Below, in pieces: positions 4,057-10,402 of a stretch of DNA of 64,000 nucleotides; positions within the stretch are counted from its first letter, which is position 1; the number at the start of each line of letters is the position of its first letter. This DNA comes from Candidatus Gastranaerophilales bacterium (GTDB lineage: Bacteria > Cyanobacteriota > Vampirovibrionia > Gastranaerophilales > Gastranaerophilaceae). The position numbers and the translations under genes were made by a program. The stretch covers positions 124,001 through 188,000 of the forward strand of contig CALUUK010000001.1 of assembly GCA_944323955.1 (NCBI GenBank), read 5' to 3'. The notes under the pieces were generated by a model. That model had not been told where the DNA came from and did no database searches. It saw nothing but the letters and a program-made list of their open reading frames with translations.

Positions 4057-4467
4057 ATGAAAAAACTTTTTATGGGGCTGTTAGTTTTTACAGCAATGTT
4101 ATTTACTTTTAATGCTGCTATGGCTTGTGATAATTGTAACTGTGGATGTGATTGTGCAAAAAATGCAGCATGTGAATGTTCAAAAGATTGTGCATGCGGA
4201 TGTCAGGAGGGTGGAAAATGCACATGCAAAAAGGATTGTACATGCGGTTGTCATGAAAAATGTTCGAAAGATTGTGCATGCGGATGCCATGATGGTGAAA
4301 AATGTACATGTAAAAAGGATTGTACATACGGCTGCCATGAAAAATGTTCAAAAGATTGTACCTGTGGGTGTCAGGATGGCGAAAAATGCACATGCAAAAA
4401 AGACTGTAACTGTCATTCCAAAAAATTTAAATTATTTAAATCTAAAAAATGTAATTGTTCTAAATAA
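4057..4467 (+). CDS. Secreted cysteine-repeat (metallothionein-like) protein
   Basis: This 136-residue protein starts with a signal peptide (LLVFTAMLFTFNAAMA, then Cys24). After it come 33 cysteines in about 113 residues, arranged as CxC, CxCGC and CKKDC. A 28-residue unit of the form KCTCKKDCTCGCHEKCSKDC plus ACGCHDGE is repeated, with histidines in most units. No known domain is assigned; by composition it should bind soft metals such as Cu(I). AMAC is a poor lipobox, so lipid anchoring is possible but uncertain. GGAG precedes the start. Promoter, operator and the csoR gene downstream suggest copper-induced expression. It may act as a periplasmic metal sponge, which is inference. Confidence 0.8.
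   Translation: MKKLFMGLLVFTAMLFTFNAAMACDNCNCGCDCAKNAACECSKDCACGCQEGGKCTCKKDCTCGCHEKCSKDCACGCHDGEKCTCKKDCTYGCHEKCSKDCTCGCQDGEKCTCKKDCNCHSKKFKLFKSKKCNCSK
4219..4410 (+). repeat. 84-bp in-frame tandem repeat within the cysteine-rich gene
   Basis: Units start at 4219, 4303 and 4387, exactly 84 bp (28 codons) apart, and the third is partial. They differ by scattered, mostly silent changes, such as TGC to TGT. Such repeats can expand or contract in whole codons and so change metal-binding capacity. Confidence 0.8.
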
Positions 4468-4484
4468 CACTCTTATTGATAAGA

Positions 4485-4520
4485 ACCTCTTTTCTTCATA
4501 GAAAAGAGGTCCTTTTTATT
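4485..4520 (+). terminator. Intrinsic terminator after the cysteine-repeat gene
   Basis: ACCTCTTTTC (4485-4494) pairs perfectly with GAAAAGAGGT (4501-4510) around the loop TTCATA, followed by CCTTTTTATT. It separates the cysteine-repeat transcript from csoR and rules out the csoR start at 4476. Confidence 0.9.
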
Positions 4521-4547
4521 GATATATTTCATAACTTTATATATTAT
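4519..4547 (+). promoter_or_regulatory. Promoter of csoR, implying a leaderless transcript
   Basis: TTGATA (4519-4524), a 17-bp spacer and TATTAT (4542-4547) lie just after the terminator. The csoR ATG at 4554 is six bases beyond the -10 box, which is where transcription should begin. No Shine-Dalgarno sequence is present, so a leaderless message is likely. No G/C-tract operator is seen here. Confidence 0.65.
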
Positions 4548-4553
4548 AAAAAT

Positions 4554-4826
4554 ATGCAAGCTGATAAAAATAGAGTTATAAGATTATTAAAAACCGTTCG
4601 CGGACAGATTGACGGTCTTATTAAAATGGTTGAAGAAAACAGAGATTGTATTGATATAAGTACGCAAATACTTGCAAGTCAGTCAATATTAAAAAAAGTT
4701 AATCTGGATATTTTAAAAGGACATTTTAATCATTGCCTGAAAGAATCTTTCTACAGCGGAAAAAAAGAAGATTCAGAAGAAAAAATTTCAGAAATTATCG
4801 GTATATTAAATAAACTTTTAAAGTAG
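4554..4826 (+). CDS. csoR: CsoR-family metal-sensing repressor
   Basis: This all-helical 90-residue repressor has the CsoR/RcnR/FrmR core: RLLKTVRGQIDGLIKMVEEN, then Cys32 in RDCIDI, and His57 and Cys61 in GHFNHC. The Cys-His-x3-Cys set matches the Cu(I) site of copper-type CsoR proteins rather than the nickel or formaldehyde branches. Metal binding should release it from DNA. The ATG at 4554 is chosen because a longer reading from 4476 would start inside a terminator. The matching operator lies at 4015-4030. The last 9 bases overlap the convergent acyltransferase gene. The copper specificity is inference from the ligand pattern. Confidence 0.9.
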   Translation: MQADKNRVIRLLKTVRGQIDGLIKMVEENRDCIDISTQILASQSILKKVNLDILKGHFNHCLKESFYSGKKEDSEEKISEIIGILNKLLK

Positions 4827-6006
4827 TTTATATTGTTTAATTTTTATGTATATTTCCCGTAATAATAAAGGACATATTGTTCCAATGATTGTATAGGCAA
4901 GCCACCAGAAGTTGTTTGTGATATTTGCCGTAAATGATGCGAGCAGATAATCAGGCTGATTGTATATATGTATTTGTAAATATGTGATTATTTTAAAAAA
5001 GGTGACATGCAGGCATAATATAATCATTGTATGGCTTCCCAGATAGGAAAGCACTTTTTTTGAAACAGATATTTTGGAAAGCTGTACAGAAATATATAAA
5101 ACGAATAAAAATCCTGATACTGAAGCTGCAATCAACCAAAGAGGGTTATTATAATAATTTATTCCTATGAAAAAACGATTGATGTGGTTGTGATAATAAC
5201 AAAATAATAAAATTATAAAAGAGATTATAAATGTAATAAAATTCAAATTTATTTTGTTTTCAAATTTTTTGTATAAAACTCCGATATAAAATAATATTGC
5301 TGAAGAAAACATTGTCCCTATCTGGTAAAAGTTAAAATGTTTCAGACTTAAAAACCAGCCGAATAAAAGACATATGATACAAATTGCGGCTCTAAAATAC
5401 TCAAAATACTTTTTTGTTATTTTATTTATTAAATAACTGCCTATACAAAAGAATATACTTATAAAGAACAAAACTTTTAAAAACCATATCGCAGAGGGTA
5501 ACAGCTCTTCGGATGTTAACAATGAAGTATAAATTAACTTTTTTATAAGCACAATAGTGTCGTAATATTGCGAAAAACCGGCTTTATCACTATATAAAGG
5601 GTTATTTGTGTATAGATTAATATTAATGAAAAAATTATGGAGGAGGATAAAAATTGAGTTGCAAATTACATACGGAAGATATAAACTTTTTATTCTTCTT
5701 TTCAGAAAACTTTTTACATTTTCAATATTTTCATAATTTTTTTTACCGAAAAAATAACCGGAAATTATGAAAAACAGTGCCATATGAAAAAGGCATATAA
5801 ATTCTCTTTTAGGACAATATGCATGACCAAGTACCACCAAAAGAATGCCGATACCCTTTGCTATATCAAAAACACAATTCCTGATATCGGGTGTTGACGC
5901 GGTTTTTTGAAGGGGTTTATCATTAGATGTATGTATGTATGTATGTATGTATGTATGTATGTATGTATGTATGTATGTATGTATGTATGTATGTATGTAT
6001 GTACAC
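4818..6006 (-). CDS. Phase-variable membrane acyltransferase (acyltransferase 3 family), apparently OFF
   Basis: This multi-pass protein begins with the family hallmark FDIAKGIGILLVVLGHAY, whose His is catalytic, followed by HMALFFIISGYFFGKK. Such enzymes O-acetylate surface polysaccharides. The conserved frame is open from 4818 up to 6035, but has no ATG or GTG in it. A TTG at 5840 would remove half of the first helix. The frame runs through the (ACAT)n tract, and the plausible start is GTG 6006, 10 bases after AAAGGGG. With the 19 repeats present, that start reads 26 codons into TAA. With 18 repeats it would read the whole 394-residue protein. Hence the gene seems switched off here and reversibly so. 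Family and frame are strong; the start is inferred. Confidence 0.85.
5927..6003. repeat. (ATGT)19 tetranucleotide tract, phase-variation switch
   Basis: Nineteen perfect ATGT units (5927-6002) plus one A form a 77-bp simple repeat inside the 5' coding part of the acyltransferase. Each gain or loss of one unit shifts the frame by one. By direct reading, copy numbers divisible by three (15, 18, 21) join GTG 6006 to the conserved frame, while 17 and 19 give early stops. Assemblers can miscount such tracts, so the exact number needs long reads. Confidence 0.95.
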
Positions 6007-6041
6007 GGTTTATATTCCCCTTTCGAAATTAAATTTCATTT

Positions 6042-6083
6042 ATTGTATCATGGAATTAAATTATTTTCTTTTTTGTATATAAT
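6042..6083. promoter_or_regulatory. Divergent promoters between the acyltransferase and HAD genes
   Basis: On the minus strand, TGATACAAT (6051-6043) is an extended -10 element about 40 bases before GTG 6006. On the plus strand, TATAAT (6078-6083) lies 18 bases before the HAD gene ATG at 6102. Neither has a clear -35 box. The two promoters are back to back, so the polysaccharide genes share one control region. Confidence 0.55.
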
Positions 6084-6101: not shown

Positions 6102-8099
6102 ATGAATGAGCATATGACAAAATTAATTTCTAAAGAAAAAGTGTTATATTCCTTTGATGTTTTTGATACTTTAATCGCAAGAACAACGGCATCTCCTTTC
6201 GGTATTTTTCTTATTACAATGAAAAAATTACAAACGGAAGAAAAATATTCCGATTTGCCTGTTTTTTTAAAAAACAATTTTGCTGTAATTAGAAAAGAAT
6301 GTGAATATTATGCTCAGGCTAATCAATTAACATTACATAATAAGTTTGATTGCACATTTGATGATATATATAGATTAATACAGCAAAATTACGCTTTATC
6401 AGAAACGCAGGTTTCTTTAATTAAAAATTTGGAAATTGAGTCAGAATTAAATAATTTGCTTCCGATAAAAACAAATATTGAAAGAGTAAAAAAACTGATA
6501 TCCGAAAATCAAGATGTTATTTTGATTTCAGATATGTATTACAGCGAAGACATAATAAGAAGATTTCTTATTCATCAAGATAAAGTTTTTGAAAACATAA
6601 AAATATATACGTCGGCAGATATCGGAAAAAGAAAATCGAACGGCAGTTTGTACAGGTATATAAAAAAAGAACTTGATGTCCAAAAACAAATTCACTTTGG
6701 TGATAATAAATTTTCGGATGTTTTGCAGGCAAAATGGAACAATATTGATTCTATTCAATATAATATCGAAGCATTAAAGCCTTATGAGAAAATGCTTCTT
6801 AATAAAGATCCGAATAATTTGTATTTTGAACTAAGTTCGGGCGTCAGCAGAATAATACGCCAAACAGCGGGCAGGGGGAAAGTTTTTGATTTTGGTGCTT
6901 CTTTCACGGCTCCGATTTTATTTTCATATGTTGATTGGATACTTGAACAGGCGCAGAACAGGAATATAAAAAATCTGTATTTTATATCCAGAGACGGCTG
7001 CATACCTAAACTTATTGCAGATATTCTGATAGCGAAAAGAAAACTCAATATAAAAACACATTATTTTTACAGCTCGCGAAGAGCTTCAAGATTCCCTGAT
7101 GAATCTAATATAGATACGTATATAAACTGGATTTTTTCCGAAATTACAAAATTTTTGTCCGTCAATCTTATTTCTTCCAGATTTAACATTTCTTCCGAAG
7201 AATTAAAATCTTTTATAAGCTGTAAAAATGATACCGAAATACTTTCGTCAGCGAAAGCATGTAAGATAAAAAATGAGCTGCTTCAAAATCAGGATTTTAA
7301 GAAATTGATTGTTGAAGTAAATAAACAAAGAAGAAACTTATTTATAAAATATTTAAAACAAGAAATAGATTTTTCAAAAGAAGATTTTGCTTTTGTTGAC
7401 ATTAACGGCTCAGGCCGTACTCAAGATAATCTTTCTCACATTATTTCGGATCTTTGTAATTTTCCTGTTTATACATTTTATATGCATCTTCAATCCGATA
7501 TGTGCCAAAGCGATAAATCAATTAAAATTGCATATATAAACACCGTAAATTACATAAGTGCGGCTACTGAATTGTTATGCAGAACAAACTTCGGACAAAC
7601 TGTTTCTTATAAAGAAGTTGACGGACATATCAAGCCCGAATTTGAATATGAAATTAATTCTAATATGGAAAAATGGGGATATAAGGATTATTTGGATGCA
7701 ATAGCTGAGTATGCGAATTTGTTTGAATCAGTAAAATTAAAAAATAATATAAAATTAAATGACATTAATTTATATATTAATTATTTTAATTATATGATGA
7801 AATCGCTTGATAAAGAAACAGCAGATGTTTTGGGCAGTATTCCGTTCGGAATGTACGGTGATGAAAAAAACATAGAAGAGTGTGCGCCAAAGTATAATTT
7901 ATTAAATATTTTTAATAATAAAACATCATTTGATTTTATATCTTTGCAAAGGACAGATATTATTTTAAAAACGATTTTAAAATTTTTAAAAAGAATACTA
8001 AGATTAAAAAACTACGGATATATTTCAAAAAAGCGTGATTTGGCATATATAAAAATTTTTAAACACAAGATAAATATAAGGAATCTTTTATGGAAATAA
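6102..8099 (+). CDS. HAD-superfamily hydrolase of polysaccharide loci (COG5610-like)
   Basis: This 665-residue protein has a HAD domain at its N terminus: VLYSFDVFDTLIART carries the DxxDT nucleophile motif, VILISDMYYSEDIIRR is motif II, and IHFGDNKFSDVLQA is the C-terminal acidic motif. The remaining 430 residues contain LYFISRDGCIPKLIADIL, a second conserved region seen in such proteins of capsule and O-antigen clusters. It is probably cytoplasmic and might act on sugar phosphates, though the substrate is unknown. Its end overlaps the next gene by 10 bases, so the two are co-translated. Confidence 0.75.
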   Translation: MNEHMTKLISKEKVLYSFDVFDTLIARTTASPFGIFLITMKKLQTEEKYSDLPVFLKNNFAVIRKECEYYAQANQLTLHNKFDCTFDDIYRLIQQNYALSETQVSLIKNLEIESELNNLLPIKTNIERVKKLISENQDVILISDMYYSEDIIRRFLIHQDKVFENIKIYTSADIGKRKSNGSLYRYIKKELDVQKQIHFGDNKFSDVLQAKWNNIDSIQYNIEALKPYEKMLLNKDPNNLYFELSSGVSRIIRQTAGRGKVFDFGASFTAPILFSYVDWILEQAQNRNIKNLYFISRDGCIPKLIADILIAKRKLNIKTHYFYSSRRASRFPDESNIDTYINWIFSEITKFLSVNLISSRFNISSEELKSFISCKNDTEILSSAKACKIKNELLQNQDFKKLIVEVNKQRRNLFIKYLKQEIDFSKEDFAFVDINGSGRTQDNLSHIISDLCNFPVYTFYMHLQSDMCQSDKSIKIAYINTVNYISAATELLCRTNFGQTVSYKEVDGHIKPEFEYEINSNMEKWGYKDYLDAIAEYANLFESVKLKNNIKLNDINLYINYFNYMMKSLDKETADVLGSIPFGMYGDEKNIEECAPKYNLLNIFNNKTSFDFISLQRTDIILKTILKFLKRILRLKNYGYISKKRDLAYIKIFKHKINIRNLLWK

Positions 8100-10402
8100 A
8101 AACAGCACAAACATATAACAAAGTTCTGTTGGCAGCGGAAAATCAATGTACGGGATGTGGTGCTTGTTTTAACAGTTGTGTTCATGGTGCAATTACAATG
8201 AAAGAAGACAAAGACGGATTTTTATTTCCTGAAATAAATGAAGAAAAGTGTATAAAATGCGGGTTGTGCAGTATATCATGCCCGGTTTTAAAGAAAGTGT
8301 ATACCGGAAAACTTAACCAAAAATGTTTTGCAGCAATGGCAGATGATGAAATACGTAAAGAAAGTGCATCAGGCGGTATATTCTTTATGCTCGCCGATTA
8401 TATACTTTCGCAAAAAAACGGTTATGTTTGCGGAGCTGTTTATGATTATGAGACGGATAGCGTAAAGCATATAATAACAAATAAGAAAGAGGAGCTTCCT
8501 CTGCTTCAGAATTCCAAATATATTCAAAGTGATATAAATACCTGTTTTAAAGAAATAAAAAACTTATTAGCTTCAAACGCATATGTATTGTTTTCAGGAA
8601 CTCCCTGCCAGGCGGCAGGACTGCTTTCTTATTTAAGAAATAAGAATACCGAAAAACTTATAACAATTGATTTAATTTGTAAAGGAGTTCCCTCGGCTAA
8701 AGTGCATAAAAAATACCTTGAAGAAAATCTTCTTGAAGGGGAAAAAATAGAAAAATTATCTTTTAAAAGCAAATTGTACGGATGGTCACCGGTCTCTCTT
8801 ACAGAAATAAAAACAGATTGCAGAAATTTTAAACAACTTTCAGACAGAGATTATTTTAAAAAATCCTTTCTGGAAGGATTAAGTGTAAGAAAAAGCTGCG
8901 GTAATTGTATTTATGCTTCAATAAAAAGACAATCCGATATAACAATCGGAGATTTTTTGCGGGTGGAAAAATACAACGGAAAACTTAATGATAATAAAGG
9001 AACATCGCTTGTTATAACTAATACTAAAAAAGGTATAAATCTTTATAAAAAAATAATCAAAAGTCTCAAATGTTCCAAAAGAGTTCCTCTCAGTATTGCG
9101 CTAAAATATAACGGATGGTTGAATAAATCAGAGCCGCTGCACAGAAACAGAACATTATTTTTCAATAATTTGGATAAAATGCCGTTAAAAAATAATTACA
9201 GAAAGTGTATAGAAGATAAATTTGATGTTGGGATAATAAATTACTGGTGGGCAACGACAAATTATGGTGCACTTTTGACGGGATATGCACTGCAACGGGT
9301 CTTATCCGATTTAGGATATTCTTCAAGACTTATTGACAATAAGTCTATGAATTTGAAAAGGAACACGGATTATATCGGAACGTTTAACCAAAAGTTTGCT
9401 GACAGGTACTTATCTGTGACACAACCTTGTATTGAAGATAAAGATTTTGAATCTCTTAATCAAAAAACTAAAATATTTATAACCGGCTCTGATCAGGTTT
9501 TTTCTCCAAAATGGATGGGAAAACACTTTGAAAAATATTTTTTGGAGTTTGCGGACATAGATGCCAAGAAAATAGCATTTTCTGCAAGTTTTGGCGTTGA
9601 TGATGATGAATTTTATCAGGATGATGTTATAAAAAATAAGATGGAAAAAGCACTTAAAACTTTTGATTATATTTCAACCAGAGAAAATTCCGGTGTTGAT
9701 ATATGCCGGGATTTCTTTAACTGTCATGCCGACTGGATAATAGATCCTGTTTTTATTTTAGATAAATCGAAATATGAAAATCTTATAGAAAATGCAACAG
9801 AGGATTATTCATCAAAGATAGTAAGCTATGTTCTTGATAATAATGCGGATTATGATAAAGCATATGCTTATTTGAGCAAAAAATACGGATGTGATGTGGT
9901 AAAAACATACGGTAAGAATATTTCGGCAGAGAATTGGCTTGCTTCAATAAAAAATTGTAAGTATTTTGTTACGGATTCTTTTCACGGAGTTTGTTTTGCC
10001 TTGATATTTAATAAACCTTTTGTTTGTGTAATAAACAGACACAGAGGTTTTGCCAGATTTTCTTCGTTATTTTCGTTATTTAATTTGCAAGGGGTCAGCG
10101 TAGAAAATATTAACGAGATTTTTGATAAGGAGGATATTTTTGTTCCTGTTGATTATGCAATGATTAATAATAAAATAAAAGAAGAAAGAGAACTCGCGCT
10201 CAAAAAACTTAATGAAGTACTTGAAAAACCAAAAGAAATTGATAATCAATCTGTTATTTCTTATGCAAATCTTTTAAAATCAAGAATTGCAGATTTGGAT
10301 AATAAGACAAGCAGTAAGAATGTAAAAAAGGAAATACTTAAAGAACTTTATTTTTGTTTGCCGGGTTTTATAAGAAAAATTATAAAAAGGTATTTTTTAT
10401 AA
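8090..10402 (+). CDS. Ferredoxin/FrhB-like domain fused to polysaccharide pyruvyltransferase
   Basis: This 770-residue protein joins two activities. Residues 15-65 hold two 4Fe-4S clusters (CTGCGACFNSC and CIKCGLCSISCP). Residues 75-350 resemble the coenzyme F420 hydrogenase beta family, with ESASGGIFFMLADYIL, FSGTPCQAAGLLSYLRN and RKSCGNCIYA. From residue 380, VGIINYWWATTNYGALLTGY begins a polysaccharide pyruvyltransferase (CsaB-like) domain ending near SFHGVCFALIF. Such genes often sit in exopolysaccharide clusters, where the second domain adds pyruvyl groups to sugars. Whether the redox half reduces a sugar or cofactor is not known. The acceptor polysaccharide is also unknown. Confidence 0.85.
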   Translation: MEIKTAQTYNKVLLAAENQCTGCGACFNSCVHGAITMKEDKDGFLFPEINEEKCIKCGLCSISCPVLKKVYTGKLNQKCFAAMADDEIRKESASGGIFFMLADYILSQKNGYVCGAVYDYETDSVKHIITNKKEELPLLQNSKYIQSDINTCFKEIKNLLASNAYVLFSGTPCQAAGLLSYLRNKNTEKLITIDLICKGVPSAKVHKKYLEENLLEGEKIEKLSFKSKLYGWSPVSLTEIKTDCRNFKQLSDRDYFKKSFLEGLSVRKSCGNCIYASIKRQSDITIGDFLRVEKYNGKLNDNKGTSLVITNTKKGINLYKKIIKSLKCSKRVPLSIALKYNGWLNKSEPLHRNRTLFFNNLDKMPLKNNYRKCIEDKFDVGIINYWWATTNYGALLTGYALQRVLSDLGYSSRLIDNKSMNLKRNTDYIGTFNQKFADRYLSVTQPCIEDKDFESLNQKTKIFITGSDQVFSPKWMGKHFEKYFLEFADIDAKKIAFSASFGVDDDEFYQDDVIKNKMEKALKTFDYISTRENSGVDICRDFFNCHADWIIDPVFILDKSKYENLIENATEDYSSKIVSYVLDNNADYDKAYAYLSKKYGCDVVKTYGKNISAENWLASIKNCKYFVTDSFHGVCFALIFNKPFVCVINRHRGFARFSSLFSLFNLQGVSVENINEIFDKEDIFVPVDYAMINNKIKEERELALKKLNEVLEKPKEIDNQSVISYANLLKSRIADLDNKTSSKNVKKEILKELYFCLPGFIRKIIKRYFL

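Follow-up and report, generated by a model that had tools for sequence, protein, structure and literature searches.

A putative ACAT-repeat phase switch in a membrane acyltransferase gene of Gastranaerophilales, within a family rich in simple-repeat tracts

The window analyzed here is a 64-kb stretch of a Candidatus Gastranaerophilales genome, in which a predicted acyltransferase gene on the minus strand and a set of surface-polysaccharide genes on the plus strand are divergently arranged around a long tetranucleotide tract. The locus comprises the following features.

4818-6006, minus strand: acyltransferase-3 gene with the predicted start codon GTG 6006-6004 (frame analysis; PF01757 match)
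4818-5924, minus strand: open frame 3' of the tract, 368 aa, with an intact acyltransferase-3 membrane domain (NDKPLQK...FDIAKGIG...; ORF and profile match, six-sequence alignment)
5927-6003, minus strand: ACAT tract, encoding (YIHT)n, best taken as at least 19 units (repeat finding, frame analysis, k=77 limit)
6017-6023, minus strand: AAAGGGG, a possible ribosome-binding site 10 nt before GTG 6006 (sequence and its interpretation)
6042-6050, minus strand: TG-A-TACAAT, a possible extended -10 element, weak (sequence; missed by the consensus scan)
6102-8099, plus strand: divergent gene, 665 aa, with a HAD-like hydrolase region, the first of the surface-polysaccharide genes (weak TIGR01549 match, E 2.2e-5)
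8090-10402, plus strand: fusion of ferredoxin/FrhB-like and polysaccharide pyruvyl transferase parts, 770 aa, in the same surface-sugar neighbourhood (PF04230, E 6.1e-33; PF04432, E 1.8e-22)

The assignment of the minus-strand gene to the acyltransferase-3 family, made in an initial annotation of this DNA, was confirmed by a match to the PF01757 (Acyl_transf_3) profile with an E-value of 6.5e-32 (111.3 bits against a gathering cut-off of 31). The match spans profile positions 4-324 of 326, nearly the whole domain; an NCBIfam search with the same protein returned no family matches. An R-X10-H motif in the first helix has been called absolutely conserved in acyltransferase-3 proteins (PMC9833829). 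In the window's protein the motif reads K23-X10-H34, with the His kept and a Lys where the family has Arg. This Lys is invariant in the six relatives of a six-sequence alignment, and K-X10-H may be the form of a subgroup that keeps a basic residue here, with R-X10-H altered and not lost. The membrane enzyme most likely O-acetylates a cell-surface polysaccharide, and the neighbouring pyruvyl transferase gene hints at such a polysaccharide as the target of the predicted acyltransferase. Elsewhere in the window, positions 4057-4467 and 4476-4826 hold a metallothionein-like, cysteine-rich protein that is exported and contains internal repeats of 84 bp, next to a metal-sensitive repressor of the CsoR/FrmR type (PF02583).

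The repeat census in this genome covered the window, 100 kb of contig C1 and chosen stretches. In the 64-kb window, Tandem Repeats Finder reported ATGT x19.2 with 100% matches at 5927-6003, in agreement with the 19 copies noted initially and the sole above-threshold repeat with units of 2-9 bases. On the coding (minus) strand it forms a 77-nt maximal run with 19 perfect ACAT units, which starts directly after GTG 6006 and is followed by the 368-codon open frame. Frame analysis found no in-frame ATG, GTG or TTG between the tract and the domain, which supports the earlier argument that the start lies upstream of the tract; the first such codon 3' of the tract is TTG 5840, within the first helix. 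The codons of an ACAT-sense tract are limited to ACA, ATA, CAT and TAC, with neither start nor stop in any frame, and thus nothing within the tract can rescue or end translation. The opposite sense (ATGT) would place an ATG in every frame.

Read from GTG 6006, the domain is reached with 15, 18 or 21 units and the frame is closed with 16, 17, 19, 20 or 22. At the 19 units of the assembly the frame runs into TAA just past the tract, at 18 (likewise 15 and 21) it enters SNDKPLQK...FDIAKGIG, and at 17 and 20 it ends early, exactly the logic for 17, 18 and 19 units that had been worked out by hand. This is the anatomy of a contingency locus, namely a long perfect tract with a unit that is not a multiple of three, placed between the start codon and a conserved domain, and a full-length frame that opens only at every third copy number. 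As a further candidate, reinitiation at the TAATG just past the tract was rejected, its ATG being in a different frame that meets a stop after 20 codons.

GTG 6006 is the predicted start codon, and the promoter would be 5' of it. The AAAGGGG reported upstream of this codon is indeed present, at 6023-6017, although its ribosome-binding match is weak and counts against the preferred explanation. The extended -10 element proposed at 6051-6043 can be seen as TG-A-TACAAT, but one base away (6050-6042), and the scan did not recover it: a search with the sigma-70 consensus gave no minus-strand promoter over threshold and left the proposed promoter unsupported. Promoter-like matches were no more numerous than in shuffles.

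The assembly consists of 28 contigs, and each of the three non-masked overlaps identified between contig ends is exactly 77 nt long. This is the signature of an assembler run with k=77, and the ACAT run has the very same length, 77 nt. When a de Bruijn graph was simulated from the flanks of the locus at k=77, the shortest path contained 19 units whenever the true copy number was 19 or higher. Since any tract of at least 19 units is thus shortened to 19, the assembled value means "at least 19", the ON/OFF state is not readable from it, and the original statement that the gene is OFF at 19 copies had to be withdrawn; a true count of exactly 19 can also be the case. A 16S search of the genome gave no match, which fits a short-read metagenome assembly. 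Repeat counts in such assemblies can therefore be set by the assembler, 19 units being what k=77 imposes on longer tracts. Among the short contigs C18, C22-C26 and C28, several look much G+C-richer at their ends than the window, and contigs C16, C17, C21 and C27 are masked; the odd short contigs and the masked ones are possibly contamination of the assembly.

We compared the gene with its homologues in a set of one genome per species. Homologues in the family of bacteria, among them a paralogue that the window's genome carries on contig C11, are 36-46% identical and have ordinary starts just before the same FDI motif with no tract there. Hence nothing essential need lie in or before the tract. 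A repeat-free orthologue with an ordinary start had been named beforehand as evidence against a switch. The homologues, including the same-genome paralogue, fit that description in part, but they are not same-species orthologues, and some Haemophilus influenzae strains have repeat-free alleles of the phase-variable gene oafA (PMC3938747), so that tract-free homologues do not refute switching. No relative of the locus was found by the orthologue search in genome contigs (two scans) and viral contigs; exact flank patterns gave nothing in viral contigs, and no second copy of the locus was read. Altogether, five acyltransferase-3 genes of the family carry a simple-repeat tract: the window gene and those of genomes G136, G058, G062 and G016. 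In the G136 homologue, a G12 tract breaks the C-terminus, and the frame reads through at 11 or 14. The other three, all from the genus, have G9-G10 tracts that are in frame in G058 and G016, and that in G062 leave the frame broken near its end.

ACAT tracts of at least four units were identified in 4 of the 241 family genomes. The three loci besides that of the window all have ACAT in the sense orientation and all lie inside coding frames. In G150, which belongs to another genus, a hexapeptide acetyltransferase gene has ACAT6 close to its 5' end; it encodes a NeuO/OatWY-like O-acetyltransferase that resembles polysialic acid O-acetyltransferases in the PDB (E 4.5e-28 and 2.1e-22). Its frame from ATG is broken at 6 units and open at 5 and 8, and this count is the more trustworthy because the run of 29 nt is far under any k-mer limit. 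Genomes G287 and G322 share the same methyltransferase-like gene (86% identical in the 2.36 kb next to the tract) with 12 and at least 19 ACAT units, respectively. This tract (L128/L127) is near the 3' end of the gene and is followed by an aminotransferase-like frame, and as judged from the frames it would decide which C-terminus is made. The G322 tract (19 units in an 80-nt run) stands at a contig end and, given its flanks, has the number of units expected at k=77. As read from the two assemblies, the pair provides direct evidence that the length of ACAT tracts can change at one orthologous site, the change here being from one related species to another.

We consider it likely that the window carries a phase-variable membrane acyltransferase gene, probably for surface-polysaccharide O-acetylation, controlled by an ACAT slippage switch. 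This reading is based on the frame logic, the domain, the surface-sugar neighbourhood, the ACAT tract in another acetyltransferase and the length difference between G287 and G322; slippage at the window's own locus is suggested by its anatomy and by the lineage. Translation would begin at GTG 6006 and run through the tract, and read-through would add an N-terminal (YIHT)n tail to the protein. Slipped-strand mispairing at replication would gain or lose 4-bp units and shift the frame, so that one third of copy numbers would keep the acyltransferase in frame, and the others would meet a stop no more than about 25 codons from the tract. The outcome would be a mixed population of cells with and without one surface-sugar modification.

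Were the tract truly 19 units long, the gene might instead be fixed OFF, a decaying or unused allele with no live switch. This would agree with the frame from GTG being broken as assembled and with the existence of tract-free homologues, including the paralogue in the same genome, but we find it unlikely: a decayed gene would not be expected to keep, as here, an intact domain of 368 codons that matches its family strongly and has the conserved residues, a tract that is long and perfect is in its most mutable state and not in a fixed one, and k=77 yields 77 nt for any tract of at least 19 units. Another role for repeats of this kind is known from Neisseria, where a TAAA tract upstream of nadA tunes transcription by spacing. 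The ACAT tract sits 99-175 bp upstream of the divergent ATG 6102, and might in the same way mainly tune transcription of the surface-polysaccharide genes at 6102-10402 through the spacing upstream of their promoter. Such tuning as the main role is quite unlikely, given that the tract is inside the only frame able to give the acyltransferase a start, that the three other ACAT loci are inside coding frames and that the promoter-like matches do not exceed those in shuffles.

Hardly probable at all is a tract that is harmless in a gene ON as assembled, with translation from a rare start in frame at 19 units (e.g., ATT 6029) or from TTG 5840. The domain frame at 19 units is open back to TGA 6038, with ATT at 6029; ATT starts, however, are very rare, and this one is upstream of AAAGGGG. 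A start at TTG 5840 would delete the FDIAKGIG stretch together with the Lys of K-X10-H, the residue shared by all six relatives.

The proposed phase-variable acyltransferase gene is very probably a slipped-strand translational switch of a known kind, for which we found no published report in this lineage. In H. influenzae, oafA encodes an acyltransferase-3 LOS O-acetylase that is phase-variable by a 5'-GCAA tract (PMC3938747; PMC9558356), and the analogy with Haemophilus tetranucleotide switches drawn in the initial annotation is apt: both loci combine an acyltransferase-3 protein with a tetranucleotide tract, and surface-glycan O-acetylation, the function of OafA, is predicted here. The present locus differs in its ACAT unit, its distant lineage (non-photosynthetic Cyanobacteriota) and a tract length limited by the assembly. 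NeuO, the phase-variable polysialic acid O-acetyltransferase with heptanucleotide repeats, has a solved structure (PMC3046976). The neuO gene of Escherichia coli K1 likewise has a coding repeat on a surface-sugar O-acetyltransferase, and the G150 gene with ACAT shows sequence similarity to polysialic acid O-acetyltransferases. In contrast to the acyltransferase-3 membrane protein, NeuO is a soluble left-handed beta-helix, and neuO has a 7-bp rather than a 4-bp unit and is prophage-borne. Our literature search, with most subscription journals outside its reach, returned no relevant report of phase variation in Gastranaerophilales, Melainabacteria or Vampirovibrio. This agrees with the initial remark that no such switch was known in the lineage, which is nonetheless rich in simple-repeat tracts.

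Photosystem I (PF00223) was detected in 51 of the 116 sampled genomes of the phylum, and neither in the window's own genome nor in the listed family members; thus the phylum is Cyanobacteriota and the class is non-photosynthetic. Together with genome size and G+C, the non-photosynthetic state points to Gastranaerophilales (Melainabacteria) and hence to a gut habitat. Poly-G tracts of at least nine were present in 36 of the 41 genomes of the genus, and those of at least ten in 178 of the 231 family genomes and in 34 of 36 genera, some of the runs being at contig ends and possibly artefacts. The frames with poly-G include glycosyltransferases, a sugar dehydratase, methyltransferases and hexapeptide acetyltransferases, as well as an MmeI-like restriction-modification protein and acyltransferase-3 frames. 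Three tracts of at least nine G occur in the window's genome (G9, G12 and G13). The G12 (G000:C10:38803-38814; L063, L132) breaks a frame of 249+124 aa that is joined at 11; this frame matched no Pfam family and looks glycosyltransferase-like by eye. The G9 (G000:C5:32973-32981; L061) is in frame near the C-terminus of a hexapeptide acetyltransferase, and the G13 (G000:C11:72504-72516; L068) is intergenic, between repeated CTTCC/GGAAG motifs.

G025, a genome of the same genus (loci L074-L102), has 58 distinct poly-G tracts (33 G9, 20 G10 and 5 G11), against an expectation of about one run of at least nine under a first-order model. In 140 kb chosen near its tracts, there was one G8 versus 19 longer runs. 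Similar G025 paralogues differ in their tracts, with G10/G9 at L101 and G9/G10 at L095/L096, and the set has the appearance of a large phasome. It resembles the Campylobacter phasome in the many G9-G11 tracts per genome; for C. jejuni, a PhasomeIt survey found that 52% of poly-G tracts were 9G and 30% were 10G, with a median of 20 per genome (PMC6321876). G025 differs in having more tracts, in its lineage of non-photosynthetic Cyanobacteriota, and in that MutS1 is present in 39 of the 41 genomes of the genus; we therefore rejected its loss as an explanation for the abundance of poly-G. The window locus, for its part, is tetranucleotide rather than poly-G.

The lineage-wide abundance of tracts is a more novel observation than the ACAT locus and deserves a survey of its own. 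Nearly all descriptions of multi-gene simple-repeat phase variation concern pathogens and their close commensals, a pattern that may reflect database bias according to a review of 2025 (PMC11868660). With confidence only a little above even, we propose that this family of gut non-photosynthetic Cyanobacteriota has kept MutS1 and has simple-repeat phasomes that are among the largest known, together with a rare ACAT switch that has arisen in unrelated surface-sugar genes (acyltransferase-3, NeuO-like acetyltransferase and methyltransferase), and that large-scale phase variation is a family-wide commensal trait. If this is true, a Cyanobacteriota family rich in tracts and with a tetranucleotide switch on surface-sugar acyltransferases would make the question of database bias testable, and it would suggest surface diversification in the family, perhaps against phage or host immunity.

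The highest poly-G count was that of G290, at least partly because some of its runs are very long, including one of 48 nt with which a contig begins; there are thus fewer tracts than the raw counts suggest. Runs of poly-G/C with lengths of about 30-48 nt stand at contig starts in both G290 and G013 (L221; G013:C108:1-32), and are either long real tracts that broke the assembly or a sequencing artefact. In addition, two tracts lie in frame in genes for DNA modification, a G13 in an MmeI-like restriction-modification protein (L053, G026) and a G11 in a DNA-methyltransferase-like frame (L031, G011); these are possible phase-variable modification systems.
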